Source: Candidatus Peregrinibacteria bacterium (lineage in GTDB: Bacteria; Patescibacteriota; Gracilibacteria; Peribacterales; Peribacteraceae). Taken from it: DNA of 64,000 bases. The DNA lies in assembly GCA_030649955.1 (NCBI GenBank), contig JAUSFD010000024.1, positions 1-64,000 of the forward strand. The letters run 5' to 3'. The position numbers were made by a program, and so were the translations under genes. This document shows, piece after piece, positions 2,240-43,062 of this stretch (its first letter is position 1; the number at the start of each line of letters is the position of its first letter). The notes beneath the pieces are model-generated. The model saw only the letters and a list, made by a program, of their open reading frames with translations, was not told where the DNA came from and did not search any database.

Positions 2240-2245
2240 TGGAAT

Positions 2246-3961: not shown

Positions 3962-4054
3962 AGGACTTGGGGAATGTTCTAGGAGGTAAACAGAAGAAAA
4001 TGCCGTAATGGATGATTGAAGCGATCATACATATACTATTCCGCCATATTCCTG

Positions 4055-4076
4055 TATACTGTTCTTTAGAAAGAAC
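4055..4076 (+). promoter_or_regulatory. -10 box with adjoining inverted repeat, putative TrmB operator
   Basis: TATACT (4055-4060) is followed at once by the perfect inverted repeat GTTCTTT-AG-AAAGAAC (4061-4076). It lies 8 nt before the regulator's ATG, where a bound protein would block transcription start. Autoregulation by the TrmB-like product is inferred from position. Confidence 0.55.
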
Positions 4077-4084
4077 AACACCAG

Positions 4085-4852
4085 ATGCTCGCTAACTACT
4101 TAGAAAAACTCGGCCTGGATACGAAGGAGCGGACGATCTACCTGGTCCTCGCGGAACTGGGCGTGCAGCCAGCTTCCGTGATCGCCCGCCGTTGCAAGCT
4201 CGATCGCGTCACGACGTACAAACACCTGAAGCAACTCGCGGATCGTGGCTTTGTGAAAGTCTACTTCCGCGATTCCGTCCAATGCTTCGGGATCGAGAGC
4301 TTCGAAAACCTGCAAGCGAACATCAAGGAGAAGCTCACGGAGTTCGAGGAACTCCTCTCCCTCTACCCCACTGCTGCGAATCTCCTCCACTCTCTCAAGG
4401 CGGAGGAGGATGTGATTCCCAGGCTCGAGCTCTACGAAGGAGAGAGTGGCATCAAGAATTTCTTCCGCGACATCGTCTTCACCGCGAAGGAGGAGAATAT
4501 CCGGCAGATCCGTCTGCTCACCGCGAATACCTTCGAGGAAGGAGCAGCCGATGAGGCATTACAGGAAGTTGTTGAGGAATTCCTCGCAGATCTCGACGAA
4601 CGCAAGATAACGATCCAACTGTTCGAAGTCACAGGCAGTCTCGTCCCTGAGCGCCTGCGCTCTGTTCCTCACTCAGCAATTAACGCGAAGAGCATTCCCA
4701 TGACTCGGGGTACCACAACGATCTTCCTCGTGGGGAGGACCGTGTACATCGCCTGTCTCAAAGGCGCGAAGATGGGGCTGCGGATCAAGCAGGCAGAACT
4801 GAGTCAGATCTTCCATTTCTTGTTTGATGTTGTGGGGAGGAGGGAGAGTTAG
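4085..4852 (+). CDS. TrmB-family transcriptional regulator 1
   Basis: 255 residues. The N-terminal ~70 residues form a winged helix-turn-helix of the TrmB type: LGLDTKERTIYLVLAELG, then an HTH in which VTTYKHLKQLADRGFV is the recognition helix and wing start. A short linker helix (~85-110) leads to an effector domain like the phospholipase-D-like C-terminal part of TrmB regulators (LYEGESGIKNFFRDIVF onward). In archaea TrmB proteins sense sugars; the ligand here is unknown. It is divergent from paralog 2 and convergent with paralog 3, and it has an inverted repeat just upstream. The same arrangement recurs at 15882, which suggests each regulator controls the cysteine-rich gene facing it. Confidence 0.8.
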   Translation: MLANYLEKLGLDTKERTIYLVLAELGVQPASVIARRCKLDRVTTYKHLKQLADRGFVKVYFRDSVQCFGIESFENLQANIKEKLTEFEELLSLYPTAANLLHSLKAEEDVIPRLELYEGESGIKNFFRDIVFTAKEENIRQIRLLTANTFEEGAADEALQEVVEEFLADLDERKITIQLFEVTGSLVPERLRSVPHSAINAKSIPMTRGTTTIFLVGRTVYIACLKGAKMGLRIKQAELSQIFHFLFDVVGRRES

Positions 4853-5003
4853 CTGCTGCCCTCACCCGCCTCCGCCCCGTGCGCGGGGCTACGGACGGGC
4901 AAGCCCTCGCCCTCTCCCGGACGCGGGAGAGGGAACTGTTGTTGTTCTGTTGAATCGCCCCCTTCTCCCGAGTCCGGGAGAAGGGCCGGGGATGAGGGCA
5001 GTT
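4853..5003. repeat. intergenic repeat cluster with two strong hairpins and repeat copy 2
   Basis: Between the TrmB gene and the 3' end of paralog 3 lie CCCTCTCCCG-GACG-CGGGAGAGGG (4910-4933) and CCCTTCTCCCG-AGTC-CGGGAGAAGGG (4960-4985). The ends of the spacer also pair (CTGCCCTCA near 4855 with TGAGGGCAG near 5000). The inverse copy of the 102-132 repeat lies at 4869-4899. The spacer joins two convergent genes, so the hairpins may also stop transcription from both sides. Confidence 0.75.
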
Positions 5004-5005
5004 CC

Positions 5006-6667: not shown

Positions 6668-6672
6668 GGGCG

Positions 6673-8355: not shown

Positions 8356-8362
8356 GAGGCGA

Positions 8363-10036
8363 TCAGTATACCTCCTTCAGGTAACACTGCTCGCAGAACA
8401 CAATTTCAGGGCGATCTTGTGCGAAGGAAGTTCGGATAGCCTTCTGACATTGAGCACATTTCCTGTCCCACAGCTTCCGTGGATTGCGCCTACGGAGACG
8501 TGCTTCGTGACGAGCGAAGAAACTCTTATCCGCAAGAGGAATCCCATTCGTTTTGGAGAAGTTGTACTCCTGCAGGGTGACCTTGTACGGTTTCCGCGTT
8601 GCTACACAGGTCAGAATCTTTGAGCAGATGTCTGGCGAAGTGTCTTGAATGGAGTCAGGAACTGGCACGGAAATCTTTGGACTTTGAGGAGCTTCCTGAT
8701 CGCTCCATCGTGCACCGAGTTCTCCTGCTCGCTCTTTCGTAATGGGGAAGTAATCCTGTGCAATGGTTTGGTTGTACGCGAGAGGGCAGAGAGACATGGG
8801 AAGGAATTGTCCCCACTCACCTGTATTCTGCATGTGTTCAATAATACGCGATGCCAACCTCTCGTACTCGTCCTTCGTGTACTGCTTGTTGAAGATGCAG
8901 TAGCTGCTGCGGCGCAGTGATACGCAGCCGAAGAGGTGCTGACACCCCTGCCTGCAACTGTAGGAGTAGAGCAGGTCGGCACCGTTGTACGTGAGGAGGC
9001 TGAAGAGTACGCGATGGCTGTCGTTGCCAACTTCCATGCACGAGTAGCACTCTTCTGCAGGGAATCCCCACGCGTAGCAATCCATGCAATTCTTCGCCTG
9101 ATGGAACCACGAGCAGTACTTGCAATCCTCGGAGTCACTGACATCGAAGCTCTCGTAGACACGTCGGGATCGGAGGATGCCGTTTCCCGTCACATCCTCG
9201 TTCATCTCTCCGATCATGAACTTGTGCGGGTACTGGAGTTGGTGCTTATCGAAGAAGACGCTCGCCTCTGCAACACGACTGCGACTGTGCAGCTGGAGAT
9301 CGGCGAAGCGTTCCTCGTACTCGTCTTTCGTCAGTTGCTTGTTCTTGTAGACGTACTCCTTCTCCACGAGGTTCACAGATCCGAAGCAGTGCTTGCAACC
9401 ACGACAGCTGTAGAGGAATGAAGAATCGTAGCAGTTGCTGCAGTTCTGAGAATAGTGCAGGTTGTAGCACTTCGCGCAATCGATGCACTCGTAGCAGAGC
9501 TGGCAGTGGTCAATGAAGCTGCAGTCCATGCAGTTGATGCAGTAATTCACGAAATTCCCGTAGTAGCAGTCCTCGTTATGGTTCGCACCTGAGATGAGGT
9601 AGCAGTTCTTGCACCAGCTCGCGGAGTTGATGTAGTCACTGTTCACGTTGCCACTTACCGAGAGAGCGATGAGAGGCACTTCTCGGAGGAGATCCCGGAA
9701 TTGATCGAAGAAGGGGCGCTGGAAATCGTAGTCCCTCCCGTAGTCCAGGGGATTCCAGGAATCACTCCACCACTCTTCGGGGGAATACACCTTACAGGGG
9801 GCCTCCGGAGGGTACTTCGAGAGCATCTGCTGCCCAGACAGATCGCTCTTTCGCTGGAAGAGGTGGAGTTCAGGCCGCCAAATTAGACGCTCCTGGAAGC
9901 GGCAATCAGGACAGGATGCCGGTGGAGGTACTGTGTACTTCTTGCCCTGGAACGTTGGCGACACACTCTCGAAGAATGCGAGGTCACCGTCCGTGACGGT
10001 GAAACTCGTGCCGCATTTCGCGCATGCTTTCTGCAA
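8363..10036 (-). CDS. cysteine-rich multi-zinc-ribbon protein, paralog 5 (TTG start)
   Basis: 557 residues starting at TTG 10036. The start is chosen because LQKACAKCGTSF aligns with the M-x-K-x-C-x-x-C start of the other paralogs and because TATACT lies exactly 7 nt upstream, as in paralog 3; the only upstream ATG lies inside the preceding gene. R1 CAKC/CPDC and R4 CAQC/CEQC are intact. R3 is lost (CVATRKPY and KSFFARHEAR). The central repeats are unusually rich in CxxCxxC (SCRGCKHCFG and CYECIDCAKCYN). Confidence 0.82.
   Translation of the reverse strand: MQKACAKCGTSFTVTDGDLAFFESVSPTFQGKKYTVPPPASCPDCRFQERLIWRPELHLFQRKSDLSGQQMLSKYPPEAPCKVYSPEEWWSDSWNPLDYGRDYDFQRPFFDQFRDLLREVPLIALSVSGNVNSDYINSASWCKNCYLISGANHNEDCYYGNFVNYCINCMDCSFIDHCQLCYECIDCAKCYNLHYSQNCSNCYDSSFLYSCRGCKHCFGSVNLVEKEYVYKNKQLTKDEYEERFADLQLHSRSRVAEASVFFDKHQLQYPHKFMIGEMNEDVTGNGILRSRRVYESFDVSDSEDCKYCSWFHQAKNCMDCYAWGFPAEECYSCMEVGNDSHRVLFSLLTYNGADLLYSYSCRQGCQHLFGCVSLRRSSYCIFNKQYTKDEYERLASRIIEHMQNTGEWGQFLPMSLCPLAYNQTIAQDYFPITKERAGELGARWSDQEAPQSPKISVPVPDSIQDTSPDICSKILTCVATRKPYKVTLQEYNFSKTNGIPLADKSFFARHEARLRRRNPRKLWDRKCAQCQKAIRTSFAQDRPEIVFCEQCYLKEVY
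8365..8370 (-). promoter_or_regulatory. -10 box of paralog 4 inside the stop of paralog 5
   Basis: AAG GAG GTA TAC TGA ends paralog 5 (K-E-V-Y-stop) and contains TATACT; the ATG of paralog 4 is 9 nt downstream. AAGGAGG is also a perfect Shine-Dalgarno sequence, but it lies 15 nt from the ATG, too far for normal use. Confidence 0.5.
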
Positions 10037-10041
10037 TGGGC

Positions 10042-11733
10042 CTAGTATACCTCTTTCAGATAGCACTGCTCACAGTAGACGATTTCAGGACGATCTGGAG
10101 CGTACGTCGTCTCAATCTCCTTCTCACATTTTACGCACGTTCTCTTCCAGAATGTTCGAGGATTCCTCCGATGGAAGCGATCGAGGTGGCGCTGATCGGG
10201 TGAGCGGCGCGGGAGGGGGATCTCCTGCTCACGGTAGAACGTGAGCTCCTGTGGTGTAATCTTGAATGGTTTTCCAGTTTCTTCGCAGAGGATTGCCCAG
10301 TTCAGCACATCGTCTGGGATGTCTTTGAGATCATCTGGGAGTTTCGCTGCGGGAATAGTCTTCGTCACTTTCGGCGGCTCAGGATCCACAGTGTCCCAAG
10401 TGTATCCATTCTTCTTTGCTTGGCTCTCCGTCAGTGGATAGTACATTTGCGCTGTCGTCCTGTTGTACCCGAAGGGAGAGAACGTGATGGGGAACAACTC
10501 GCCCCACTCCCCTGTTGTCTTCATATACTCGAGAATTTTCGGCACGAGCTTCTCGTACTCCTCCTTCGAATACTGCTTGTTGAGAATGCAGTACTTCTTA
10601 TGGTGCATGTTGAAACACCCGAAGCACGATACTGAGCTCTGGATGAACCAGCAGTAGAGCAGATCCGAGCAGCTGATGTGCGCGTTGTGAGTGAAGAGAA
10701 TGTGATACCCATCGTTCCCTGCAATCGAGCACTCGTACGATTCGCGGAGGTTGAGACCATACTGATAGATGTCGTAGATATTTTTCGCTCCCGTAACGAC
10801 CTGGTAGAGGAATTTTCCATCCTCCACATCCTCGCAATCGAAACTCTCCAATGTATTCTTGCAATTCTGGAGGTAATCACCGGAGCAGTTCTCGAGGTTA
10901 TGTCCGTGGAATTCCTTGAAGGGATGTGAAACTGCAAGTTCTTCCAGACGTTTCCGAAAATTCCCGTACTGCTTTGCAGAACTCAAATTGATCGCTCCCA
11001 TCTTCTCCTCGTACTTTTCCTTTGATAGCTGCTCGTTCTCGTAGCAGTACTCCTTCTCGCGCAATCCCACACACAACCAGCAACTCTTGCAGCCAATGCA
11101 ATCGCGCAGGAAGCCACTCGAGTGGCAGTTGATGCAGTCCTGGGATCCCCGCAATCCGTAGCACCTGTGGCAGTCGACGCAGTCGTAGCAGAGTTCACAG
11201 TGGAGGTTGTAGAAGCCGTCGACGCAGGAAATGTCCTTCTTGAATCCGTAGCCGTAGTAGCAATTCTCGCAGTAATCGGAGTGCATGATCAGGTAGCAGT
11301 TCTTCGCGAATCCCGCGTAGTGGATGTACTCGGAATTGATGTTCGTTCCCTCGCTCAGGAGATTCTGCGCTGGAACGTCCTGCCAGAGTTCCTTGAGTTG
11401 ATCGAAGATCGGCCAGGAGAAATCGACATCACGGCCGTACGAGCAGGGATCCCACTGATCACTGTGCCAGCACTCCCTGCAATAGATCACTTTCCCACTG
11501 TGCGGTGGATGCTCCGTGATCGTTCGCTTCTTGCAGAGTCCGCAAGTCGCTGGGTAGAAGAACCGTTCATTGCAGAGTGCTAGACGTCGCTGTTGGCGGC
11601 AATCTGGACAGTGCGTTGGAGTTGGGATCGTGTATTTCTTCCCATTAAACACCGGTGAAACGCTTTCGTAGAACGTCAGATCACCATCGGTAATGGTGAA
11701 TGCCAGTCCGCAATTCTTACAAGAAGTATTCAT
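10042..11733 (-). CDS. cysteine-rich multi-zinc-ribbon protein, paralog 6
   Basis: 563 residues with about 39 cysteines, one of the most Cys-rich members. It alone carries a complete extra ribbon R2: CGLCKK near residue 55 pairs with YCRECWHSDQWDP near 80, where the others have CDxTGK and no second knuckle. R1 (CKNC/CPDC) and R4 (CVKC/CEQC) are intact, R3 is lost (CEETGKPFKI and RSPDQRH). The ATG is 24 nt after the stop of paralog 7; no TATACT is present and TTTAGT 7 nt upstream is the best -10 candidate. Confidence 0.85.
   Translation of the reverse strand: MNTSCKNCGLAFTITDGDLTFYESVSPVFNGKKYTIPTPTHCPDCRQQRRLALCNERFFYPATCGLCKKRTITEHPPHSGKVIYCRECWHSDQWDPCSYGRDVDFSWPIFDQLKELWQDVPAQNLLSEGTNINSEYIHYAGFAKNCYLIMHSDYCENCYYGYGFKKDISCVDGFYNLHCELCYDCVDCHRCYGLRGSQDCINCHSSGFLRDCIGCKSCWLCVGLREKEYCYENEQLSKEKYEEKMGAINLSSAKQYGNFRKRLEELAVSHPFKEFHGHNLENCSGDYLQNCKNTLESFDCEDVEDGKFLYQVVTGAKNIYDIYQYGLNLRESYECSIAGNDGYHILFTHNAHISCSDLLYCWFIQSSVSCFGCFNMHHKKYCILNKQYSKEEYEKLVPKILEYMKTTGEWGELFPITFSPFGYNRTTAQMYYPLTESQAKKNGYTWDTVDPEPPKVTKTIPAAKLPDDLKDIPDDVLNWAILCEETGKPFKITPQELTFYREQEIPLPRRSPDQRHLDRFHRRNPRTFWKRTCVKCEKEIETTYAPDRPEIVYCEQCYLKEVY
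10044..10049 (-). promoter_or_regulatory. -10 box of paralog 5 inside the stop of paralog 6
   Basis: AAA GAG GTA TAC TAG ends paralog 6 and includes TATACT, 7 nt before the TTG start of paralog 5. The stop is TAG here and TGA at the other junctions, yet the hexamer is unchanged because it uses only the first base of the stop. Confidence 0.55.
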
Positions 11734-11757
11734 AGGGAAAACTAAAGATGTTACACA

Positions 11758-13428
11758 TCAATCGACAGCAGCGAGGTAACAGGATTCGCAGTACACAATC
11801 TCTGGTCTCTCAGGAGCGTACGTCGTCTGGATCTCCTTCTTACACTTCCCACACTCTCGCTTCCAGAATTTCCGGGGATTGCGCTGTTGCATTCTCTCCC
11901 GATGGCGGCAGAAGAAGCAGCGTAGGGGGAGCGGGAGATTCTTCTGACGGAGCAAATCTAGCTCACGCTGTACGATTCGGAAATTGCGTTTGCACTTCGC
12001 GCAACACAGCACTTCTTTCGTGACCGTATCCGGCACTTCCCCAATGGTATCAGGGGCTGCGTACGTAGATCCGGAGTACTCCTTGGCATCCTCATCCCGC
12101 CAGACGTACCCCTTCTTCTGCGCTTCTCCTTTGGTGAGGGGGAAGTAATCTTGAGCGAGCGTTTCGTTGTAGGCGAACGAGGCAAGCGCAATGGGAAAGA
12201 ATTCGCCCCATTCATCAGACTTCTCCATGTGCTCGATGATCCGAGGCGCGAGCTCCTCGTACTCCTCCTTCGTGTACTGCTTATTGAGGATGCAGTACTC
12301 CTTTCGACTCATTGCCACGCATCCGAAGAGGTTTTTGTTGTGCATGCAGAAGCTGCAGTAGTAGCAATCGTGATCCTCGAAGCAGTGTGAACAGAAGAGG
12401 ATGTGCTGCGATCGGTCACCAGAGTAACTACACTCGTACAGAAGCTGGCAGTCCCCTACCTCCTGCACATCCATTGAACTCTTCGTCGCCATCCACCCTT
12501 GATAGTTGTACGTGCAATCCCACAAATCGCGCGAATCGAAGCAGAAATGCGCATTCTTGCAGTTCGTGAGATAGTCCCCGAGAACATCTTCATTCTGAAT
12601 GCCGTGCACCTCCTTCTGCGGATACTCGAGCTTCAGTTTCTCGAACCGTTCCCGCGCAGACAGCAGACGTTCGCGTGAGGTGAGCATCAGCCGCACCTGC
12701 TCGAAGGCTTCCTTCGAAACGGGCTTATTCTCAATGTGGTATTCCTTATTGCGGAGATTGCTGCACATCAGACAGTTTTGGCAACCGGTACAATTCTTCA
12801 GGAACATGCTCCCCGAACAGTTCTGGCAGTCCTGGAGAAACGCACAATCGTAGCATTGGACGCTATCGACACATTCGTAACTCAGTTCGGATTTCCCGAT
12901 CCGGTAGCAGTCCATACAGTTCTGTGAATTGTTGATGCTGTACGAGTAGTAGCAGTCTCGATTGAGGTCGGAGTCGAAGATCAGATAGCAATCCTTATTC
13001 TTCGTGCAGTAGTTGATGTACTCCGAATTCTCATCGTACTGGTAGGTGGTGTGGAGCGCGTAACGGGGAACTGCGATAAGGAGGTCCCTGTACTGTTCAA
13101 AAAATGGACGGGAGAAATCAAAATCTCTCCCGTAGGTGGCTGCATCCCATTGATCGGACCACCACACTTCCTGTTTATAGACGGTGTACGGAGAACCCGG
13201 ATGGTAATTCGAAATGATCGAATCCTTCGTGAAGTCACATTTGCGCTTGTAGAGGTGGATCTGATTCCCCTGCGCGACTCGTCGCTGCTGCCGACACTCT
13301 GGACAGAGAGTGGGTGGCGGCAGGGAAAATTTCTTTCCCCCGAACGCCGGTGCCACGCTGTCGTAGAACGCCAGGTGCGCATCGGTAATATCGAAGGGGG
13401 CCGAGCATGCCTTGCAGGAACGATTCAT
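11758..13428 (-). CDS. cysteine-rich multi-zinc-ribbon protein, paralog 7
   Basis: 556 residues. R1 CKAC/CPEC, R3 CAKC/CFFC and R4 CGKC/CESC are all intact. The C-terminus is CYLAAVD, not KEVY, and correspondingly no TATACT precedes paralog 6. Its own promoter has TATAAT (13436-13441 on the complement) 7 nt before the ATG. It follows the toxin gene by 50 bp in the same direction. Confidence 0.85.
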   Translation of the reverse strand: MNRSCKACSAPFDITDAHLAFYDSVAPAFGGKKFSLPPPTLCPECRQQRRVAQGNQIHLYKRKCDFTKDSIISNYHPGSPYTVYKQEVWWSDQWDAATYGRDFDFSRPFFEQYRDLLIAVPRYALHTTYQYDENSEYINYCTKNKDCYLIFDSDLNRDCYYSYSINNSQNCMDCYRIGKSELSYECVDSVQCYDCAFLQDCQNCSGSMFLKNCTGCQNCLMCSNLRNKEYHIENKPVSKEAFEQVRLMLTSRERLLSARERFEKLKLEYPQKEVHGIQNEDVLGDYLTNCKNAHFCFDSRDLWDCTYNYQGWMATKSSMDVQEVGDCQLLYECSYSGDRSQHILFCSHCFEDHDCYYCSFCMHNKNLFGCVAMSRKEYCILNKQYTKEEYEELAPRIIEHMEKSDEWGEFFPIALASFAYNETLAQDYFPLTKGEAQKKGYVWRDEDAKEYSGSTYAAPDTIGEVPDTVTKEVLCCAKCKRNFRIVQRELDLLRQKNLPLPLRCFFCRHRERMQQRNPRKFWKRECGKCKKEIQTTYAPERPEIVYCESCYLAAVD

Positions 13429-13435
13429 GCCTGGG

Positions 13436-13441
13436 ATTATA
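13436..13441 (-). promoter_or_regulatory. -10 box of paralog 7
   Basis: TATAAT on the minus strand, followed after 7 nt by the ATG at 13428. Here the upstream gene is the toxin, whose stop lies about 38 bp away, so this consensus -10 is free of coding constraint. The spacing is the same as in the embedded boxes. Confidence 0.6.
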
Positions 13442-13478
13442 CTCGTCTTTCATCGCTCAATCACTGGATCTCCTAGTA

Positions 13479-13715
13479 CTACTTCTTGTACATCCCACCT
13501 CGAAATCCAATATCCGTAACAATGATTCCTGTCGTCGTTCGTGCGAAGATGATCCTCACTTGACCGACACGGCAGCGGAGGAGTCCTTTCTTCCCCGTCA
13601 GGTACTTCACATCAAGGGAGTTCCATTCCCCTGCAATGAGTTGCTGCAATGCTCTCTCCAACCGTTTGCGGAGCTTCGCATCCAGACGCGAGAGGAACTT
13701 CTGGACTTTATCCAT
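13479..13715 (-). CDS. RelE/ParE-family toxin
   Basis: 78 residues with the RelE/ParE layout: an N-terminal helix pair (LSRLDAKLRKRLERALQQLI), then strands LDVKYLTGKKGLLRCRVGQVRIIF and a final IIVTDIGFR. RCRVGQVRIIFAR matches the R-x-R-x-G-x-x-R-x-x-Y/F signature of ribosome-dependent mRNA interferases or gyrase-targeting ParE. The start overlaps the antitoxin stop by 8 bp, so the pair is translationally coupled. It lies between cysteine-rich paralogs 8 and 7. Confidence 0.82.
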   Translation of the reverse strand: MDKVQKFLSRLDAKLRKRLERALQQLIAGEWNSLDVKYLTGKKGLLRCRVGQVRIIFARTTTGIIVTDIGFRGGMYKK

Positions 13716-13995
13716 GGCGCTTGGAGCGCTTGCGGGATGATTTCCCCTTCTTCTCGAGTGCCCTATTCCCTGACTGAACCATCGTCAGGAGTTCCTCCGC
13801 GGGGATACCCGTTGGGAATCGCAAACCGAAGCTGCCATCTTCTCCTTCGTACTCCACGACATCGAGGAGAGGCTTTAGGAGCAATCCTTCTGGTCTGACG
13901 AGCGCGATGAAATGGTGTGTGGGGAACTGCTCACGCCACGCCTTGGGAAGGGTGACAGAGCCATTGGAATGGAGTTTGAGAGAGGTGATACTCAT
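13708..13995 (-). CDS. AbrB/SpoVT-type antitoxin
   Basis: 95 residues. The N-terminal ITSLKLHSNGSVTLPKAWREQF (read in pieces: a strand, GSVTLP loop, helix) is the swapped-hairpin AbrB DNA-binding fold. The C-terminus is strongly basic (SRKRSKRHG) and would contact the toxin. The ATG at 13995 is preferred over 14022 because TATAAT lies 7 nt before it and the 14022 start lies within the palindromic operator. First gene of the two-gene toxin-antitoxin operon. Confidence 0.8.
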   Translation of the reverse strand: MSITSLKLHSNGSVTLPKAWREQFPTHHFIALVRPEGLLLKPLLDVVEYEGEDGSFGLRFPTGIPAEELLTMVQSGNRALEKKGKSSRKRSKRHG

Positions 13996-14002
13996 AGTAT
14001 AG

Positions 14003-14031
14003 ATTATAGAGAATGTATACATTCACCACAA
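14003..14031 (-). promoter_or_regulatory. toxin-antitoxin promoter with palindromic operator
   Basis: On the minus strand: TTGTGG (14026-14031), a 17-nt spacer, TATAAT (14003-14008), then the ATG 7 nt further on. The spacer contains the perfect 14-bp palindrome GAATGTATACATTC (14011-14024), exactly where an AbrB-type antitoxin would block RNA polymerase. Autoregulation is inferred. Confidence 0.7.
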
Positions 14032-14043
14032 TATGCTTTTTCT

Positions 14044-15732
14044 TCAGTATATGGCTGAAAGGTAGCAAGATTCGCAATACACCGTCTCCGGCCTACCCGG
14101 AGCATAGCTCGTCTCAATGTCGCGCTGACACTTCGCACAGTTTCGGTTCCACAGTTTCCGCGGATTACGGAGCGCCATCCTCGCAAGATGTCGACAGTCA
14201 AAGCACTCGCGAGGGACTGCGACATTCATCTGTCGGTAGAATGAGAGTTCCTGAGGAATGATCTTGTACGCCTTCGCGCACCGCTCGCAGCGCAGGACGG
14301 ACTTCAAAATATCATCAGATGTTCGATCGATCGCCTCTGGTATGGGAGAAGGAGATTGACTCGCGGGAATTCGCTCTCCCTCCTCATCACGCCACTTCCA
14401 GCTCCTACTCTTCACATCTTCCTCAGATAGAGGAAAGTATTCCTGCGCGACGGTCTCGTTGTAGGCGAAGGGCGACATCTCCATAGAGAAGTACTCACCC
14501 CATTCGTTTGTGCTTCGCATATGCTCGATGAGTTTGCCTGCGAGCCGCTCGTACTCCTCCTTCGTGTACTGCTTATTGAGGATGCAGTACGACGCATGGC
14601 GCAACCCCATGCAGCCGAAGAGATCGTGGCTGTTCTCCATGCAGAGCTTGGAGTAGTAGACATTGCTGACACTCGTCCAGAGCTGATCGCAGAAGGCGAC
14701 TCCGCGCACACCCTCACCCACTTCGTGATTCTCGTAGCAGAACTCCGCGCCCTTCTCCGCACCAAAGACGAGAGTGTCGTGCACTTTCTTCATGTTGCGC
14801 GCGCTCGCGACGTACTTGCAGTCCTGTGAGTCGAGGAGATCGAAGCAATGCACACAGCGCTGCGTATTCCACAGGTAATCGCCACTCGAATCTTCATTCT
14901 GAGTGCCGTGCATGGCCCGCTGCGGGAACTGTTGTATCCAAGCCGAGAACTGCTCACCAAGCTTCGCGATCGCTGCTGAAGACGTGAGGTGGAGATCATC
15001 CCTCATCTTCTTGTATTCGGCTTCGGAGTACTGCTTATTCCAGATACAGTGCTTCTTGTTCCGGACATTGGAACACGCGATGCAGTCCATGCAACCGATG
15101 CAATTCTTCAGGAACCACGAGCTCGAGCAGTTCTCGCAGTCCTGCGAGTGCGCGAGGCTGTAGCACTTGCGACAGTCGATGCACTCATAGCAGAGCTCGC
15201 ACTCCTTCCCCTGGAGCATGTCCACGCAGCTCTTCGAATCGTAGAGGAAGTTGCCGTACATGCAGTCCTGGTCCACATCGGCTTCGAAGAGGAGGTAGCA
15301 GTTCTTGCACCAGCCACACTGGTTCACGTAATCGCTATTCTGCGTTCCAATCGCGGATAGAGCGAGGTGCGGCACGGCGCGCAGCAGCTCTGCGAACTGC
15401 GGGAAGAACGGGCGAGTGAAATCAATGTCTCTCCCCTGATCGTGTCCATCCCATGTTCCCGCGTACCAAGCCTTGTTTTCGTACACGATGAAGGGTTTAT
15501 CTTGGGAGTACACAGAAACGATCGACTTCTGCGTTGCGTTGCATGTGCGTTTGTAGAGTGTGCGTTCATTCCTCCAGGACATCCTGCGCAGCGCCCTACA
15601 ATCCGGGCAGAGTGTAGGAGGAGGAATATCGTACTTCTTTCCACCGAGGACCGGTGCGACATCACTCCGGAGAGCGATATCCTCCGGCGCATCCTCGAAT
15701 GCCTTCCTGCAGACTCTGCACGAGATAGCCAT
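14044..15732 (-). CDS. cysteine-rich multi-zinc-ribbon protein, paralog 8
   Basis: 562 residues. R1 (CRVC/CPDC), R3 (CERC/CFDC) and R4 (CAKC/CESC) are intact; the central block has CYECIDCRKCYS and CIGCMDCIACSN. The C-terminus is CYLSAIY, whose ATA TAC TGA still contains TATACT although the next gene is now the antitoxin 50 nt away. This fits insertion of the toxin-antitoxin pair between paralogs 8 and 7. It heads block II and is divergent from the second TrmB-like regulator. Confidence 0.85.
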   Translation of the reverse strand: MAISCRVCRKAFEDAPEDIALRSDVAPVLGGKKYDIPPPTLCPDCRALRRMSWRNERTLYKRTCNATQKSIVSVYSQDKPFIVYENKAWYAGTWDGHDQGRDIDFTRPFFPQFAELLRAVPHLALSAIGTQNSDYVNQCGWCKNCYLLFEADVDQDCMYGNFLYDSKSCVDMLQGKECELCYECIDCRKCYSLAHSQDCENCSSSWFLKNCIGCMDCIACSNVRNKKHCIWNKQYSEAEYKKMRDDLHLTSSAAIAKLGEQFSAWIQQFPQRAMHGTQNEDSSGDYLWNTQRCVHCFDLLDSQDCKYVASARNMKKVHDTLVFGAEKGAEFCYENHEVGEGVRGVAFCDQLWTSVSNVYYSKLCMENSHDLFGCMGLRHASYCILNKQYTKEEYERLAGKLIEHMRSTNEWGEYFSMEMSPFAYNETVAQEYFPLSEEDVKSRSWKWRDEEGERIPASQSPSPIPEAIDRTSDDILKSVLRCERCAKAYKIIPQELSFYRQMNVAVPRECFDCRHLARMALRNPRKLWNRNCAKCQRDIETSYAPGRPETVYCESCYLSAIY

Positions 15733-15881: not shown

Positions 15882-16646
15882 ATGCAGACGGAAATCCTCC
15901 TCACCACCCTCGGTCTCTCTGCGAAAGCAGCGAAGGTGTACGTCACTCTCCTGCAGCTGGGTCCCGCAACGATGACACAGCTAGCGAAGGCTGCAGCATT
16001 CAAGCGACCGACAACGTACTTACTCGTCGATGAGCTGCTCATGCGCGGGTTCGTCACTGCAACGAAGAACGGCAAACGTACGACGTACGCTGCGGAGCAT
16101 CCGCGCCGTCTCCTCCAGGCAATGCGCACGCGAGAGCACGAGATGGAGCGCGTCCTCCCGGAACTCGAAGCTCTGTACTACGAACCGAAAGGCCGACCTC
16201 GCGTCGGTGTGTACGAAGGACTCCAGGGAACGATGCAGCTCTACGATGAGCTCTACGAATCGATCACCACCAAGCGCGAGGAAGCACTCTTCTTCACGGC
16301 GATCGGCGATCTGGAGGAGCGACATCCAGAGATTCTGGAGCGCTTCTACGCAACGCTCAACACACTCCCACGCGACTACCGCATGCGCGAGCTCAATCAC
16401 GGCGATGAGCGTGCGGTCACCTATGCGAAGAATGTTCGCCCGCGAACGGGCAAGAACCACCACATTCGCATCCTCGATACGAAGCGCTTCCCCTTCGCCA
16501 ATACGGACATGCTCATTATCGGGAACAAGATCATGATGTTCTCACTCAAGGATGATCTCGTTGCCATCGTCATTGAGAATACTCAGCTCGCGAACTCCCA
16601 GCGTGCGCTCTTCAATGCAGCGTGGGAGGCGGGGACAGAGGTGTAG
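15882..16646 (+). CDS. TrmB-family transcriptional regulator 2
   Basis: 254 residues. Winged HTH at ~5-70 (LGLSAKAAKVYVTLLQLG, then RPTTYLLVDELLMRGFV), a helical linker (REHEMERVLPELEALY) and an effector domain opening VGVYEGLQGTMQLYDELYES. It has the same domain order and length as the regulator at 4085, with clearly diverged sequence. It is divergent from paralog 8 and so mirrors the block I arrangement. Downstream is a 144-bp gap and then the convergent O-antigen ligase gene. The ligand is unknown. Confidence 0.8.
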   Translation: MQTEILLTTLGLSAKAAKVYVTLLQLGPATMTQLAKAAAFKRPTTYLLVDELLMRGFVTATKNGKRTTYAAEHPRRLLQAMRTREHEMERVLPELEALYYEPKGRPRVGVYEGLQGTMQLYDELYESITTKREEALFFTAIGDLEERHPEILERFYATLNTLPRDYRMRELNHGDERAVTYAKNVRPRTGKNHHIRILDTKRFPFANTDMLIIGNKIMMFSLKDDLVAIVIENTQLANSQRALFNAAWEAGTEV

Positions 16647-29738: not shown

Positions 29739-31328
29739 TTACTGAGGTTTGATTTGTCCGCGGATCTCTCCATTGGGATTCGCAGCGGTGTGGACGTTCA
29801 CGTAGATGCGCTCACGGAGGAGCGCATCGCGCTCCGCAGCAGTGAGCCCCGTCCAGGTACCCGTCGCGCGGTTGCCGATGAAGACAATCGGCTCCACCAC
29901 ATCTCCGCTCACTCCCGTCTGCGCGAGGTGGAAGTGGGCAGCGGTGATCGTGCTGCCAGTACCTTTCAGCGTGATGTCGTAGCGCAAGCCATCCTCGAGG
30001 AGGGTGAAGGTTCCCGTTCCCGTCATCGTCGTCGTGACTGCAGGAACTTCCTGTGCACCCGTGAGTGTTGCCGTGAAGGAAACACCGGAATCGTTGTGGA
30101 GGAAGGTGCTCGCATCGGAGAAGATGACACCGGCCTCCGTTCTCAAACCGGTGACGGTGAGCGTGTAGCTCGCCTGCGAGCGGAGATCCTCCTTGAGGCG
30201 AAGTTCTACTTCTCTGTCATTCAGCGACACGACGCGGTCGATCGCGACGGAGCCGGTCTGGCTCGCGAGCTGGTAGCGGAAGACTTCTTCCGCTCGCACA
30301 GCGTCGATATCCGCATTGAATGCCAGCGTGATGCGGTTGTCTGCTGTCACTGTGAGGGACATGATTTCCGCCGTGGGATCCTCATCGATGGTGAAGACGT
30401 GATCCGAAGAGAACGTCACTCCTGCTTTTGAACGCAGGTTAATCGCAGAGACGCGGTAGCGGTCTGCACGGAGGGCATTCGTCAGCGTGAGCTCCACGGT
30501 GCGGTCGGAGACGAGGTGAGCATCACTCACGATGGCCTTCGCAGAGTCCGTTACGCTGATCACCGTGTAGTTATCCCTATCCTCAGCGGTCGCTTCGTTG
30601 AGATCCTCACTGAAGGTGACGCGCACCTTCGTATTCGACTCCACGCGCACATCGGAGATGAAGGGGGTTTCCTCCGCTGGTCCGCAGTCGTTGCTGTAGT
30701 CGAGATGTTGGGACGCGCGGTGGAACATGACGATCATCTCCGCTCTATTCATGAGGGTAGCGGGACGAACACGACCAGTCGCATCATCACCTTGGAGGAT
30801 GCAGTGATCAGCTGCCGCTTGGATGGGATCGAAGTACCATTCGCGTTCATGCACATCCGGGAACTGGGGAGCAGAACCTGTGTGTGGGAGGGCATACGCG
30901 CGAACGAGGAGAGCTGCAGCTTCTGCACGATTCACCGAATCAGGAGGACGGGCGGTGCAGGGTCGCGAATCCTTGTAACAGTCACGGTCGCCGCGGACCC
31001 ATCCTTGGATTGCTGCCGTCTCTACGTACGGGTAGTACCACGCGGATTTGGGAACGTCGTCGAAGCTCGGCGTCTCGGGGTTATCGAGCGAGAGACCGTA
31101 GACGCGGACGAGGAGCTTGATGAGCTCCGCACGTGTCGCGATATCATTCGGGCGGAGGCGTGCCTCAGCGGAATCGAGGGCACCGAGGCCGAGGAGTGCA
31201 TCAGCGGCTTCCTCGTACCACACACCCGCGTCTACATCAGTGTAGTGCGTGAGGCCTTGAGCATTCGCCGGTGGTGCAAGGCTCGTGAGGAGGAGAGTGA
31301 AGAGTGTGCCGGTGGCTATGCGGAGCAT
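29739..31328 (-). CDS. S-layer-homology surface protein with Ig-like and CHRD domains
   Basis: 529 residues. Signal peptide (LRIATGTLFTLLLTSLAPPANA), three SLH repeats (starting YTDVDAGVWYEEAADALL, FDDVPKSAWYYPYV and FPDVHEREWYFDPI, ~residues 28-205), two SbsA-like Ig domains (VRVTFSEDLNEATAED, then ITLAFNADIDA, ~210-400) and a C-terminal CHRD domain (FTATLTGAQEVPAV, AAHFHLAQTG, IYVNVHTAANPNGEIRGQI). SLH repeats tie such proteins to wall polymers. ATG 31328 is preferred over 31343 because AAGGAA lies 5 nt before it, one of few Shine-Dalgarno-like sites here. Confidence 0.85.
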   Translation of the reverse strand: MLRIATGTLFTLLLTSLAPPANAQGLTHYTDVDAGVWYEEAADALLGLGALDSAEARLRPNDIATRAELIKLLVRVYGLSLDNPETPSFDDVPKSAWYYPYVETAAIQGWVRGDRDCYKDSRPCTARPPDSVNRAEAAALLVRAYALPHTGSAPQFPDVHEREWYFDPIQAAADHCILQGDDATGRVRPATLMNRAEMIVMFHRASQHLDYSNDCGPAEETPFISDVRVESNTKVRVTFSEDLNEATAEDRDNYTVISVTDSAKAIVSDAHLVSDRTVELTLTNALRADRYRVSAINLRSKAGVTFSSDHVFTIDEDPTAEIMSLTVTADNRITLAFNADIDAVRAEEVFRYQLASQTGSVAIDRVVSLNDREVELRLKEDLRSQASYTLTVTGLRTEAGVIFSDASTFLHNDSGVSFTATLTGAQEVPAVTTTMTGTGTFTLLEDGLRYDITLKGTGSTITAAHFHLAQTGVSGDVVEPIVFIGNRATGTWTGLTAAERDALLRERIYVNVHTAANPNGEIRGQIKPQ

Positions 31329-31470
31329 AGTTGTTTCCTTCATGAGAGTAGTGGGGAGAGAACAAAACTGTGTCTGTTGTTGAGACGATCGAGAGGCCGA
31401 ACTCTTACCGCCTTTCTATCCAGGAAGCGAGCAAACGGCCTATTCTGTGCGTACGTGCTATTCTGCACTT

Positions 31471-34837: not shown

Positions 34838-37000
34838 TCACTCATCCCCTCGCTCTGCGGGGAGGAGGCCTGCCAGACTTTCATCGTGTTCCTCAGGATC
34901 CAATCCCTGCGCTCGGAGGATCTCCCGCCATTGGCACAGGGCAGCAGGAACATCCTGTTTCGCTTTGTAGAGGCAGTGAACGAACTCCCAGCGAGGGGTC
35001 CCCTTCGCGATGTCAGCGGCGAGGAGGATGCGCTCGATCTGTGGCCAGAGGTCCTTCCATTCTTTCTGCTCTTCTCGTCCACTCTCCAGAGCCTTCGCAG
35101 TTGCATTACAGTCACGCAGGCAGTACGCAACCATGTCGGGTGCAGAGGCTGATCCGCCGAAGCGGCGATCGCTGAACTGGCGCATGTTGTGTTCGAGCTC
35201 CTCCATGGTGAGGTGAAGGACACGAGCGAGCGGCTCCAGAGCACGAGGTTTCAGGAGACGCTTCGGGGTGGGGTGCAGCTTGGGAGCCTTCCTCCCCTTG
35301 GGAACGGCGATCGTTCCCGCGAGCTGCTCGGTGTAACGATCTCGCCAATCTGCGCGTAGCGCATCGGTCATCTCTCCCCCCATACACTTGACGATGTGCT
35401 CGAGGAGGGGCCAGGAGGGAACTTCGATTCCCTCTGCGAAGCGTCGCATGTGATGCTTTGAAGCGAACATGGGACCGATGTACTCTGGCAGTGTTGCACG
35501 CACTGCATCAGAGAGCTGGCGGAACTCGGTGGAGATGCGCGCACCGGCACGTTCCGAGAGACGGGTAATCGCCTCCTTCACCGTGGAAGGTTTCGAGAAG
35601 CTGTCACGAATGGCGATTGCCTCGTGTGCTTTGGTCATCCCCAGGTGATGCACGATGATACTCAGCGCTTCCGCCACTTCATTGGAAATCCTCTCTTCCG
35701 CACCTTGGCAATTCTCGAAAAGAGTGATGTCTCGCTCTGTCAACGGTGGATCCATCTCCTTGCACTGCGCGAGTGCAGTATTCACTTCTTCCGATCCATC
35801 TTCTCGCACATCGTTGATGATCGCGATGAGTGAGCGTTTCGACACACCCCACTGTTCCCGATCCAAGCGCAATGGATGACCAGCAGAATCCGTGCCGAGC
35901 CGCTTGCGGTACAGTGTCCGCTCCTCGCGGAAGCACGCGATGAGTTCTTCCGCCTCCTCTGGCATCTCAGCGACGACGTGAGCGAGAACTGCCGGAGGAG
36001 CAGTCTCATTGAGGAGTTCCTTCCCCTCGAGAGCGGGATCTCGGAGGAATGAGCTCGGGCGACCCTCCGCTTGCAGGATGGTCTTCATCATCCCATCACT
36101 GATTCCCCGTTGGCGCTGCTTCTCGCGGAGTGCGACGAAGAACTGCGGGCGCACTTGCTCCATTGCGTACGCTTTCTCGTATCTCTCCCGAAGTTTCTGG
36201 GCTCCCTGTTGACCGACGATCTTCGTGAGAACGGGGAGTGCCTTGTCCCAAGAAGGCATCTTGAAGCGGGCGAGTTCAAACTCCGGTGTTCGTCTGGTAC
36301 TCGGGGCCAAACGAGTCCTAGCGCGGGTGAGTTTTGGCCTCGTCGAGAGCTGGTCCCGAATATGGAGCTCTGCCAGGACTGGCGGAACGCTACGCTTGCC
36401 CTCGAGGATGGAGCGCGCCTCGGTCACCCACACTGATCGGACGAGGCTCACATCCACGCCGTGTTCGCGTGGAGGGAAGGAGCAGAGGACCCGGTTTAGG
36501 TCGCGGAAGGGCGTCAAGTGCCCCTGATCCCGTCGTTCGCGCAGCGCGGGCAGGCTTACTCCTGTCCTCTCTTCGACTTTATGCGGCCCCATCCGTAGCT
36601 CGAACTCCTCGAAGAGGCCGTACACCGTCCTACGCTGATCCCCCAGCATCTCGTCGATCACAGCGCGGACGAACTCCTGCGGGACTTCGGTTCCATTCCA
36701 CAGACGCACGAATGCGGAATACACCTCACGTGAGAGGTGTGTGGCATGCGGCGAAAAGCGGTCGTTCTCACTCTGTTCGACGAGGTCAGAACGTACCCCT
36801 GTGCGTTCTGCGTAGCGAGAACGACTCAGCTGCAAGATCACCCAGCGGATGTGTGCGAGGAGGGAGAGGAGCCTGTCCTCCCTCTCGAGGACATCGTTGT
36901 ACTCCCCATTCCGAGCGATGATGAGTGCCCTCTTCGATGGAGTCACACCCTGCGTTCCCTCCGTAACGGGGAGCGGCCGGAGAGCGGAGTCGACAGACAT
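34838..37000 (-). CDS. large protein with multiple XRE-like helix-turn-helix units (A)
   Basis: 720 residues, soluble, Arg/Glu-rich. It is not a known family to me. Several segments fit XRE-type HTH units: RSRYAERTGVRSDLVEQSE (~63-81), HKVEERTGVSLPALRERRD (~139-157), QRGISDGMMKTILQAEGRPS (~298-317), REQWGVSKRSLIAIIND (~380-396) and HHMRRFAEGIEVPSWPLLE (~522-540). The units are separated by 80-150 residues of helix with W/Y-rich ends (RADWRDRYTEQL). It is divergent from a similar 771-residue protein 30 bp away. A multi-HTH DNA-binding or nucleoid protein is inferred. Confidence 0.55.
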   Translation of the reverse strand: MSVDSALRPLPVTEGTQGVTPSKRALIIARNGEYNDVLEREDRLLSLLAHIRWVILQLSRSRYAERTGVRSDLVEQSENDRFSPHATHLSREVYSAFVRLWNGTEVPQEFVRAVIDEMLGDQRRTVYGLFEEFELRMGPHKVEERTGVSLPALRERRDQGHLTPFRDLNRVLCSFPPREHGVDVSLVRSVWVTEARSILEGKRSVPPVLAELHIRDQLSTRPKLTRARTRLAPSTRRTPEFELARFKMPSWDKALPVLTKIVGQQGAQKLRERYEKAYAMEQVRPQFFVALREKQRQRGISDGMMKTILQAEGRPSSFLRDPALEGKELLNETAPPAVLAHVVAEMPEEAEELIACFREERTLYRKRLGTDSAGHPLRLDREQWGVSKRSLIAIINDVREDGSEEVNTALAQCKEMDPPLTERDITLFENCQGAEERISNEVAEALSIIVHHLGMTKAHEAIAIRDSFSKPSTVKEAITRLSERAGARISTEFRQLSDAVRATLPEYIGPMFASKHHMRRFAEGIEVPSWPLLEHIVKCMGGEMTDALRADWRDRYTEQLAGTIAVPKGRKAPKLHPTPKRLLKPRALEPLARVLHLTMEELEHNMRQFSDRRFGGSASAPDMVAYCLRDCNATAKALESGREEQKEWKDLWPQIERILLAADIAKGTPRWEFVHCLYKAKQDVPAALCQWREILRAQGLDPEEHDESLAGLLPAERGDE

Positions 37001-37030
37001 TGGTCTGTGATTCTCCCTCTTCTACACTCT

Positions 37031-39346
37031 ATGTCAATGTTCTCGTTGGTCCTCGAAAACTGTGCAAATTACGCAGATTCCTCCCCCTTGACTGAAGAGG
37101 TACGATGGACAGCTTCCCTCCCCACTTCCTCCATGCACGTGAACCTCGATGGCCAACGGAAGAGTTCCAACACGTATGGGGAACGAGTGCTCGAGACGGT
37201 TCGGCAGAAGGGGGATCCGCTCGCCACACTCATCGCAGAAGTGCGGTGGCAGCAACTGGGAATGACACGTAAGGGAGCTGACAGGAAGGCAGGCGAATGG
37301 GAGGGATTCTTCACAGCTCTGGAGGATCCGTCCCGTCCCCACCTCCATGCGAACTACGCGAAGCTCACGGTCTTCTTCGAAATGCAGGGCATTGCAAAGG
37401 AGACCGTAGATCGCATCCTCGATCTGCTCGTCGCCGATAGGGAAGGTCTCGACCGCTTCTTCGAGCGACTGCACTACAAGTTCGGTCCAGAACTTCTGGC
37501 CGCATCGGGTCTCCCTCGCGAGAAGCTCACCGTACGCCGCGAGAAGGGAACAGTCCCCGATTACTTGGAACCCCAGGAGATCGTTCGCACTCTGTTCTCG
37601 AGCAGTGCAGTCCGAGAACGGTACCGCGGACGAGAAAAAGAAATGCGAGGAGAACAACGGCAGCTCCTCGACGATGCGAAGACATTCTGGACATTGGACA
37701 AACAGAAGGAACTCCACAGCCGTGGCATAGAGGATGTCCTCGTTCGCTTCCTCACAGAGTATGAGAAGTATGTCCGCTCACAGGGCAAACCTTTTTCGAA
37801 CAGAGAAGCATTCGAGAAACAGGTTCCTACAGAGACAGCGTTCGCACTCTCGCGGTGTACTATGACTCCCTGGTGCCCGGAACTCGAGGCACTTGTGCGC
37901 AAGGTTATCCCCGCCGCGGAGCTGGAAGCATTTCGCACGCAGTGGTTCGTCGAGCAAGTGAAGGAAACTCCACGCAGTCACTTCAAGGAACACTTCATGA
38001 AGAGCATGGAAGCGCAGGGCATCACGACAGCACAACTCGCAGCGTTTGCAGGAATTGACCGATCCACGACGAACAATCCCACCCAGGCAGTACGGCAGAT
38101 CATCGATCAATGCCGTGCCTCCGAGGTCGCACCTCCACTCGTTCTCGTCGAGCTCGTCGGGAGGGACAACGTGCAGATAGATGAACAAGGGACGTTCGAG
38201 AAGGTAGCGCTCATCCGTTCGTTCCGGAGGGATCGGGAGGACTACTATCGTCGCACAGGCAACGCGGTGCACGGAGGACGGAATGCACCGCAGCTCAGCG
38301 TGCGCATCGGGCGAGATCTCGCGGGGGTGAGTGCGCATGACCTTGCATGGCAACTCTGCGATCCCACAGGCGATCGCCGTCGTGCACTCGAAGCAAAGCG
38401 CTCACAGAAAGTCCCTGCGGATGTCGAGCGGATACACAAGCGATTGCTCCGCTTCGAGCTTGGAGAAATTCCCCAGCAGGGTGCGCGGAACACTTCTCCT
38501 ACGGCACTCGCACAGCGAATGGAGCCCCCCATGAACCGCGAGGAACAGATGAGTATTTTCCGGGCCATTCAAACACTCGGTGAGGCGAAAGTTGCAGCGG
38601 CCCTTGAGCGAAAGGAACAAGCAGAGGTGCAGAAGGCGACAATGCCAGATACTCTCGGGACTGTGGATTCCATTCCTGCGTACATCGCGGCTCTGGTGCA
38701 GAGTGCGGGGGGAATGAAGCCAGCGGCGCGAATAACTCGTGGTTCAACGAGGAGCACGACGGGGAGCTCCCTTGGCATGCATGCGCAGCGCCTCCGGAAC
38801 ACCATCAATGGTAATGACATTCCTCCTCTCCCTCTCCTGGTGCAGGCAGTGAAGAACGTGCAGGCGAAGATGGGGTGGCAGTGCGATGCAGATGCCCTCG
38901 AGGCTCAGCTCAGGCGCACTTGGTATGTGGACTATCCTGAGCACTTACTGTCACGTGAGAAAGATCCAGTGGAAGACCCGCTCGCACGCATGCTCTGCAC
39001 GATCATCGCGGGCAACGCACCAACGAACACTGCCTTCGCCAGGAAGATGCCTGTTGCCCACGGGTACGCCGTGCCGTTGCTCTCCGCAACAGTGGGCGGT
39101 CTCAAAGTTGGCTGGAAGCCATCATGGCACAATCTGAGCATGATCCTGCGCGCGGGTAAGTTCAGAGAAGGGACTCCGGTGTGGAAACTCGCGGAGCAGC
39201 TCTTCGAGGATCCCGATACGGATCTCTCTACAGCACTCAAGACCCTCCTGCCGACATTCCGCGAGGAGGGTATCGAGATCCATCCGAGTACACTGCCTGG
39301 CATCACCCTCGAGGAACTCGGCGTGAAGAAGAAGACTCAGCGCTGA
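37031..39346 (+). CDS. large protein with multiple XRE-like helix-turn-helix units (B)
   Basis: 771 residues from ATG 37031 (ATG 37133 is an alternative). Same style as the divergent protein: HTH-like units GLPREKLTVRREKGTVPDYL (~175-195), GITTAQLAAFAGIDRSTTNN (~333-352), AQRLRNTINGNDIPPLPLL (~580-598) and TAFARKMPVAHGYAVPLLSA (~663-682), the last leading into PSWHNLSMILRAG. Linkers are helical and charged. The shared PSW/PPLPLL-type helix after the turn links A and B as likely paralogs. No enzymatic motif or membrane segment is seen. Confidence 0.55.
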   Translation: MSMFSLVLENCANYADSSPLTEEVRWTASLPTSSMHVNLDGQRKSSNTYGERVLETVRQKGDPLATLIAEVRWQQLGMTRKGADRKAGEWEGFFTALEDPSRPHLHANYAKLTVFFEMQGIAKETVDRILDLLVADREGLDRFFERLHYKFGPELLAASGLPREKLTVRREKGTVPDYLEPQEIVRTLFSSSAVRERYRGREKEMRGEQRQLLDDAKTFWTLDKQKELHSRGIEDVLVRFLTEYEKYVRSQGKPFSNREAFEKQVPTETAFALSRCTMTPWCPELEALVRKVIPAAELEAFRTQWFVEQVKETPRSHFKEHFMKSMEAQGITTAQLAAFAGIDRSTTNNPTQAVRQIIDQCRASEVAPPLVLVELVGRDNVQIDEQGTFEKVALIRSFRRDREDYYRRTGNAVHGGRNAPQLSVRIGRDLAGVSAHDLAWQLCDPTGDRRRALEAKRSQKVPADVERIHKRLLRFELGEIPQQGARNTSPTALAQRMEPPMNREEQMSIFRAIQTLGEAKVAAALERKEQAEVQKATMPDTLGTVDSIPAYIAALVQSAGGMKPAARITRGSTRSTTGSSLGMHAQRLRNTINGNDIPPLPLLVQAVKNVQAKMGWQCDADALEAQLRRTWYVDYPEHLLSREKDPVEDPLARMLCTIIAGNAPTNTAFARKMPVAHGYAVPLLSATVGGLKVGWKPSWHNLSMILRAGKFREGTPVWKLAEQLFEDPDTDLSTALKTLLPTFREEGIEIHPSTLPGITLEELGVKKKTQR

Positions 39347-42627: not shown

Positions 42628-43062
42628 GTGTTTCAGCGACACCCGGTCCAAAACGGCTGCACGATGTTCGTGACGACGAACATCCAGGAGCGGAGACCTG
42701 TCTTTCGAAATTCAGCGTACGCTCGAGAGGCGATTGAGACGCTCTACCGCATCAAAGAATTTTATCCATTTCTACTCTTCGGATTCGCCATCATGCCGGA
42801 TCACTGTCATCTTCTGCTCTGCCTTGAAGCACCTCAGACCATTTCCGAACTCATGCGGAAGTTCAAAATGGGCACGAGTAGGAACATTGGCATGGGTCCA
42901 ATATGGCAATCAAGATTCCACGTGAAGTATCCCAACAACTCACAGGAGGCTCTGCTCTACATTCATCGAAATCCAGTGAAAGCTCATCTATGTGACGAGC
43001 CCTCTGACTATCCATGGTCATCTGCTAGCGGAAAGTGGGAAGTACAGGATCTCGGTTGGTAA
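42628..43062 (+). CDS. REP-associated tyrosine transposase (RAYT, Y1/HUH family)
   Basis: 144 residues with GTG start (MFQRHPVQNGCTMFVTTN); ATG 42664 is an alternative. The metal-binding HUH motif is PDHCHLLL (~57-64), the FVTTNIQERRPVF strand precedes it, and IHRNPVKAHL with YPWSSA form the typical end. The catalytic Tyr is probably in LLYIHRNP or HVKY. RAYT enzymes cut single-stranded REP hairpins and spread them without moving themselves. The gene is flanked by inverted REPs, a REPtron layout. Confidence 0.85.
   Translation: MFQRHPVQNGCTMFVTTNIQERRPVFRNSAYAREAIETLYRIKEFYPFLLFGFAIMPDHCHLLLCLEAPQTISELMRKFKMGTSRNIGMGPIWQSRFHVKYPNNSQEALLYIHRNPVKAHLCDEPSDYPWSSASGKWEVQDLGW

Follow-up and report, generated by a model that had tools for sequence, protein, structure and literature searches.

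We analyzed a stretch of 64,000 nucleotides (hereafter, the window) from a Candidatus Peregrinibacteria genome (assembly GCA_030649955.1, contig JAUSFD010000024.1), and we found in it a divergent gene pair coding for two large proteins, P0001 and P0002, that are predicted to consist largely of helix-turn-helix (HTH) units of the XRE type. The two proteins belong to a family, here called B, whose members in related genomes usually adjoin a gene coding for a putative SF2-type helicase, here called A. The pair appears to form the DNA-reading half of a two-part system that is so far undescribed. In Patescibacteria, whose genomes are small, few systems of regulation or defence have been described. 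Below, labels beginning with G denote genomes (G000 is that of the window), and those beginning with L denote loci.

The gene pair and its surroundings

P0001 (34838-37000, minus strand, 720 aa) and P0002 (37031-39346, plus strand, 771 aa) are intact open reading frames. An earlier note on this DNA, made from the sequence alone, had given their coordinates, strands and lengths exactly, as well as their head-to-head arrangement with 30 bp between the annotated ATG codons. The start of P0002 is uncertain: residues 1 to ~39 have a pLDDT below 50 in the AlphaFold2 model, and an alternative ATG at 37133 would widen the gap, so that the true intergenic distance could be up to ~132 bp. The earlier note also considered the expression of the two genes to be tightly linked, which may be the case; a single promoter-like match was found (Table 1), and the P0002 start is uncertain. 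Inverted repeats in the spacer were considered as operators and not accepted, being weak pairs of 12-13 nt. P0001 has a pI of 7.3, close to neutral, and acidic proteins occur among the B homologues.

The pair is flanked by a sulfotransferase-like gene, an ATP-grasp-like gene, groES/groEL, a Y1 transposase and a Clp-type AAA ATPase, and among the window neighbours inspected none had an evident link to P0001 or P0002. The transposase-like gene (42628-43062; IS200/Y1 type, PF01797, 1.5e-9) lies between groEL and the Clp-type ATPase and is not Tn7-like. Elsewhere in the window we observed eight tandem paralogous genes of ~560 aa (563-15732, minus strand) with N-terminal Cys-x2-Cys motifs; the four that were tested match a treble-clef zinc finger (PF23477, up to 2.2e-8) at the C-terminus. 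A TrmB-type regulator (4085-4852), and possibly another (15882-16646), accompany this array. The window also encodes a 534-aa protein with S-layer homology, Ig-like and CHRD domains (29739-31343).

Table 1. Features of the P0001/P0002 gene pair in window coordinates; percentages are hhalign probabilities against the XRE profile.
Feature	Position	Strand	Residues and evidence
P0001 probable unit 7	34910..35233	-	~590-697; helix pattern; P0002 equivalent matches XRE structures
P0001 unit 6	35318..35581	-	~474-561, with VPSWPLL; 77%; HTH_31 4.7e-6 in L028 equivalent
P0001 unit 5	35600..35875	-	~376-467; 76%; HTH_31 7.7e-6 in L031 equivalent
P0001 unit 4	35972..36142	-	~287-343; 78%; best HTH_26 stretch of consensus
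P0001 probable unit 3	36155..36382	-	~207-282, with MPSWDKAL; helix pattern
P0001 unit 2	36398..36625	-	~126-201; 42%, score 22.6 vs <=15.1 in shuffles
P0001 unit 1	36692..36874	-	~43-103; 94%; Z 7.5 to C.Esp1396I and YmfM
Spacer between the two start codons	37001..37030	.	30 bp
Promoter-like TTGACA-16-GAGAAT	37037-37010	-	Upstream of P0001, overlaps P0002 start; consensus match only
P0002 unit 1	37217..37429	+	~63-133; 94%; CapH N-terminal HTH Z 6.5
P0002 unit 2	37445..37621	+	~139-197; 42%
P0002 probable unit 3	37733..37906	+	~235-292; helix pattern, weak Pfam only
P0002 unit 4	37982..38158	+	~318-376; 78%
P0002 unit 5	38288..38458	+	~420-476; 76%
P0002 unit 6	38672..38872	+	~548-614, with IPPLPLL; 77%
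P0002 unit 7	38978..39208	+	~650-726, with KPSWHNL; C.Esp1396I Z 6.6, HipB Z 6.1

Both proteins are arrays of predicted XRE-type HTH units

Searched singly, neither P0001 nor P0002 matched anything in Pfam, NCBIfam or PADLOC at E<=10, and the one PHROGs match (E 0.11) was not significant. A family profile was therefore needed. Relatives were gathered in related genomes by tblastn and then by profile, and 18 family B members were aligned; segments of 80 columns of this alignment were compared using hhalign with a profile of XRE domains, for which 33 HTH_3 sequences from relatives were used. Five separate positions of the B profile matched the XRE profile, with probabilities of 94, 42, 78, 76 and 77%, while the controls reached at most 3.8% (200 column shuffles) and 10.9% (segments of a helicase alignment). 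The family B consensus also passed the curated Pfam cut-off (HTH_26, 1.8e-8; HTH_3, 4.3e-5), and HTH_31 matched single homologues in two further places, at 7.7e-6 (L031) and at 4.7e-6 (L028). At the third unit, the consensus segment gave weak matches to HTH_17 and HTH_26 (E 0.015-0.02) and an hhalign probability of 2%, not above control. A search of PDB sequences with the B and A profiles returned chance matches only.

Structure prediction, which had been set beforehand as a check on the multi-HTH reading, gave XRE-fold HTH units in both proteins. The AlphaFold2 models are all alpha (mean pLDDT 80.6 for P0001 and 79.2 for P0002), and VIA-align comparison with XRE structures identified XRE-fold domains at residues 42-120 of P0001 and at 61-132 and 645-733 of P0002 (Z 6.1-7.5), with the five-helix lambda-repressor-like fold present in first and last units. 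The top structural matches of both first units and of the last P0002 unit were C.Esp1396I, YmfM, the N-terminal domain of CapH and HipB. The first unit of P0002 fits the CapH N-terminal HTH with an rmsd of 2.4 over 66 of 66 residues; the matches of its last unit, where the sequence profile was negative, span 75-77 residues. These Z values are middling if taken alone, yet they agree with the sequence evidence.

Profile and models together suggest about seven units per protein, spaced ~60-115 residues apart: five are firmly established by sequence profile, a sixth is supported by predicted structure, and a seventh is probable from its helix pattern. The hhalign matches at five sites, the consensus Pfam matches and the modelled XRE folds thus bear out the multi-HTH nature that the earlier note had proposed for both proteins. 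Its several HTH segments stood; its count of four or five, at a spacing of 100-150 residues, was too low. The PSW or PPLPLL helix that it had seen following these segments is indeed there, the motif being the start of the helix directly after the recognition helix. The internal repeats that it expected are visible only by comparison with XRE domains: self-comparison of the family profile gave at most ~6%, the units having diverged too far to detect one another.

Distribution and phylogeny of family B

P0001 and P0002 align over nearly their full length (22% identity, E 2e-10) and score 2e-210 and 7e-231, respectively, with the family B profile; judging from these alignments, they are paralogues of one family. 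Of the 74 genomes in the window's own family, 14 carry B according to profile searches; the remaining ~279 genomes of the class (353 in total) yielded none, and a phylum-wide search of 380 genomes found no B beyond that family. The named carriers are metagenome-assembled genomes of Candidatus Peribacteria or Peregrinibacteria. The searches made of viral contigs and of phage and plasmid collections returned no relative of P0001, P0002 or A. That no described family has this layout, as the earlier note had it, is consistent with the empty library searches above, and we found no paper describing such a family in the open-access literature. Of these elements, only the domains are known already; the profile libraries and open-access literature searched contain neither the array nor the family nor the A-B partnership.

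Within the B tree, P0001 belongs to a "B1" clade, and its nearest relative (34% identical, sister at 100/99 support) is the B1 protein of G097 (L105, 6231-8522). P0002 shares 27-28% identity with the B proteins encoded in tandem at L028, and its branch has no firm placement. Two B genes, one in G023 (L036:6097-8535) and one in G053 (L031), lie in similar neighbourhoods near a tyrosine-recombinase-like gene; the one in G023 is distant and separate from the A-B pair of that genome.

A helicase-like partner gene in relatives

A conserved gene of ~760-890 aa, A, directly adjoins B in 11 of the 14 B-bearing genomes (G004, G010, G023, G040, G050, G051, G056, G096, G097, G098 and G111). In G112, both A and B lie at contig edges, and A was not found in G053 or in the window's genome, alone among the 14; ~1.4% of the latter is missing, and A could lie there. 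Where the two genes are co-directional, B starts within -14 to +19 nt of the stop codon that precedes it. Several layouts were observed (a slash marks head-to-head genes): A-B in most genomes, A-B-B in G040, B/A in G023, B-B/A in G051 and B1/A-B2 in G097. Two related cassettes are broken: B of G050 is split into two frames by a frameshift (L032:7605-9361), and a second A of G040 is split in two frames (L129:1760-3978, G040:C77).

We classify A as probably SF2-helicase-like because of its invariant motifs and its profile matches. In nine divergent members, only 17-33% identical to the first, the Q-motif Gln, GxGK (Walker A), DE (Walker B) and GR..H (motif VI) are invariant. Two divergent members matched Pfam ResIII above the cut-off (1.4e-6 and 1.6e-5), and one of the two, the A protein of L125, matched a DNA helicase family in PHROGs (phrog_16, 2.5e-5), the sole significant PHROGs match for A. 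There was no significant NCBIfam or PADLOC match, and no Helicase_C match for a second RecA domain; motif VI is visible in the sequence. Pairwise identities of A rise and fall with those of B across nine genomes (r = 0.97, Mantel p 1e-4), a correlation that might equally come from linkage alone.

The earlier note had also offered the pair as the two parts of a defence-like system with recognition modules. That they are two different parts is not supported, since the two proteins are paralogous and the ATPase part is absent from the genome. The idea of recognition modules is indirectly supported by the coupling to a helicase-like gene and by the way in which highly divergent alleles replace one another at one slot, described next.

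Apparent exchange of alleles and partners near ligA

In the genus of G096, G097 and G032, A lies at the same slot near ligA, next to a gene for a TPR protein; two of these genomes also have an HD/RelA-SpoT gene at this slot. The LigA proteins of the three genomes are 76-84% identical, and their A proteins only 17-25%. The genus of G111 and G017 shows the same disparity (LigA 73% identical, A 17%), and here the HTH array gives way to a short ArsR-like HTH protein as the partner. Over the fixed slot as a whole (L104, L105 and L125; L108 and L128), flanking genes are 51-84% identical, in contrast to the 17-25% of the A alleles. At L126:2693-6054, L127:8013-11434 and L128:6514-9536, the gene after a divergent A is a short one for an ArsR-type HTH protein, in place of the multi-XRE gene, and two of these three loci adjoin a gene that resembles ribonucleotide reductase by sequence. 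In G041 and G107, A is paired with an ArsR-type protein of 244-258 aa (HTH_5, 4.9e-22 for that of G041).

The ArsR-paired A genes and the switch of partner suggest a constant component, A, combined with an exchangeable HTH partner, and strongly diverged alleles that replace each other at a fixed slot. Replacement of divergent alleles is typical of loci under diversifying pressure, and this is our main argument for a putative conflict-related role. The ligA slots of 20 genomes chosen for having no cassette there contained neither A nor B, and no obvious other defence genes among the output listed. We also found no defence-island neighbours, and PADLOC gave no match for P0001 or P0002 at E<=10 and no significant match for the A and B proteins of relatives.

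A fusion to a sigma factor

In G053, one of the two B-bearing genomes in which A was not found, a 1269-aa protein (L031:7968-11777) joins a complete multi-XRE B protein to a complete RpoD-like sigma-70 factor through a linker of ~90 aa. The sigma part has Pfam regions 1.2, 2, 3 and 4, with NCBIfam in agreement, and the B part belongs to the clade of P0001 (93/91 support). Since a sigma factor has a role at promoters alone, this single case suggests that DNA binding by B was recruited to transcription at least once. Pfam detected no sigma region (2 or 4) in P0001 or P0002. Genomes of the family also hold multiple divergent sigma-70 factors that carry long extensions of up to 1022 aa (loci L067-L081, e.g., L069:2926-5994, L068:3970-6621 and, on G000:C8, L067:2933-4873); the extensions did not match the B profile.

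Proposed role and alternative explanations

The reading that we favour, and to which we give an even chance, is that P0001 and P0002 are DNA-reading array proteins of an ATPase/HTH-array system, orphaned in this genome and now motor-less binders or regulators. Each HTH array would lie along a long, extended DNA site and read it with several recognition helices. In relatives, the B array would bring the coupled ATPase A to that DNA, to move on it or to remodel it, and the swapping of divergent A genes and of HTH partners would fit diversifying pressure, for example in the discrimination or restraint of foreign DNA. The motor gene may have been lost in the window's genome from a B1/A-B2 arrangement: P0001 has its nearest relative in the B1 protein of G097, whose gene is oriented head to head with A, and the gene order of the window therefore looks like B1/A-B2 without A, by a parsimony argument in which the P0002 branch is not firmly placed. 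In the simplest case, P0001 and P0002 would then be repressors or regulators acting at specific sites, among them the divergent promoter region of the pair itself.

It is possible, and to us less probable, that B proteins are primarily transcription factors, regulators of promoters with multiple sites, A being a transcription or chromatin remodeller and the pair in the window a set of oversized divergent regulators. Small divergent HTH pairs are normally regulators, and the sigma-70 fusion involves the very clade of P0001 in a family of genomes with many extended and divergent sigma factors. However, that fusion was seen once, it would be unusual for regulators to diverge in step with an SF2 ATPase or to exchange alleles of 17% identity at one locus, and there are no conserved adjacent target genes, the neighbours varying between genomes. 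A tentative proposal, in which we place somewhat less trust, is a DNA-discrimination system specific to Peribacteria: an interchangeable reader (an XRE array or an ArsR-type protein) would direct an SF2 translocase to extended DNA sequences, whole cassettes would be swapped at the fixed slot, and the array would serve as a protein 'ruler' of many bases, read by several recognition helices, and would have been re-used in one genome as the DNA-binding half of a sigma factor.

It is unlikely that the B proteins of the window are decaying remnants, functionless after the loss of A. The absence of A from G000, the patchy distribution of B (14 of 74 genomes) and the broken cassettes of G050 and G040 would agree with decay; against it, the two genes have 720 and 771 codons without a stop, their models reach a pLDDT of ~80, and their GC3 is within the range of the window. 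Moreover, P0001 and the B1 of L105 have already diverged to 34% identity, and unselected frames of 2 kb would not have remained open for so long.

The favoured slot near ligA recalls Tn7-type transposons, in which B would be a TnsD/TniQ-like target selector and A an AAA+ regulator (TnsC-like). We regard this as very improbable: the GR..H motif and ResIII similarity of A indicate SF2 rather than AAA+, Pfam scans of P0001, P0002 and the consensus gave no TniQ match (a diverged core could be missed), and no Tn7-like transposase was recognised beside the pair or at homologous loci, where many neighbours were judged by translation only. Equally improbable is a generic alpha-solenoid scaffold with a convergent resemblance to HTH domains, for which speak the lack of a whole-chain Foldseek match (best E 0.08-0.3) and the many helical-repeat proteins among the weak ones, and against which stand the five separated XRE profile matches far above controls, the Pfam HTH matches of the consensus at the curated cut-off, and the XRE structures as best VIA-align rows at both ends.

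A family of ~2-kb genes that is tied to an unannotated motor, and whose divergent alleles are exchanged at one location, is a sign of strong selection. Should the arrays recognise long sites, they would represent naturally occurring DNA readers with multiple HTH units, and their code could be tested; and the swap between XRE array and ArsR protein beside the same motor, together with the sigma fusion, makes the idea of a motor plus exchangeable reader directly testable.

Comparison with known systems

Units of B share both fold and profile match with XRE (Cro/C1) proteins (HTH_3, HTH_26 and HTH_31; C.Esp1396I, HipB and the N-terminal domain of CapH). Known XRE proteins typically have one HTH per chain and dimerise, whereas B proteins are predicted to carry about seven diverged units in a chain of 700-800 aa; and, unlike in known XRE proteins, we recognised no separate sensor or dimerisation domain in B. 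RpoD-type sigma-70 factors are linked to the family through the one fusion in G053, and P0001 and P0002 themselves are without sigma regions.

With the SF2 ResIII group, to which the res subunits of type III restriction systems belong, A shares the Walker A motif, the DE box, GR..H and the Q-motif Gln. In contrast to that group, A is coupled to an HTH array or an ArsR protein, and not to a modification gene or a nuclease.

The nearest architectural precedent for B, a multi-HTH chain with an ATPase partner, is TnsD/TniQ of Tn7-like transposons. TnsD-like target selectors combine in one chain several HTH domains (in the C-terminal region), a long DNA site and an ATPase partner (PMC10293859). B differs from them in having no TniQ match and no recognised Tn7-like transposase genes nearby, and in having a partner that is apparently SF2-helicase-like instead of AAA+.
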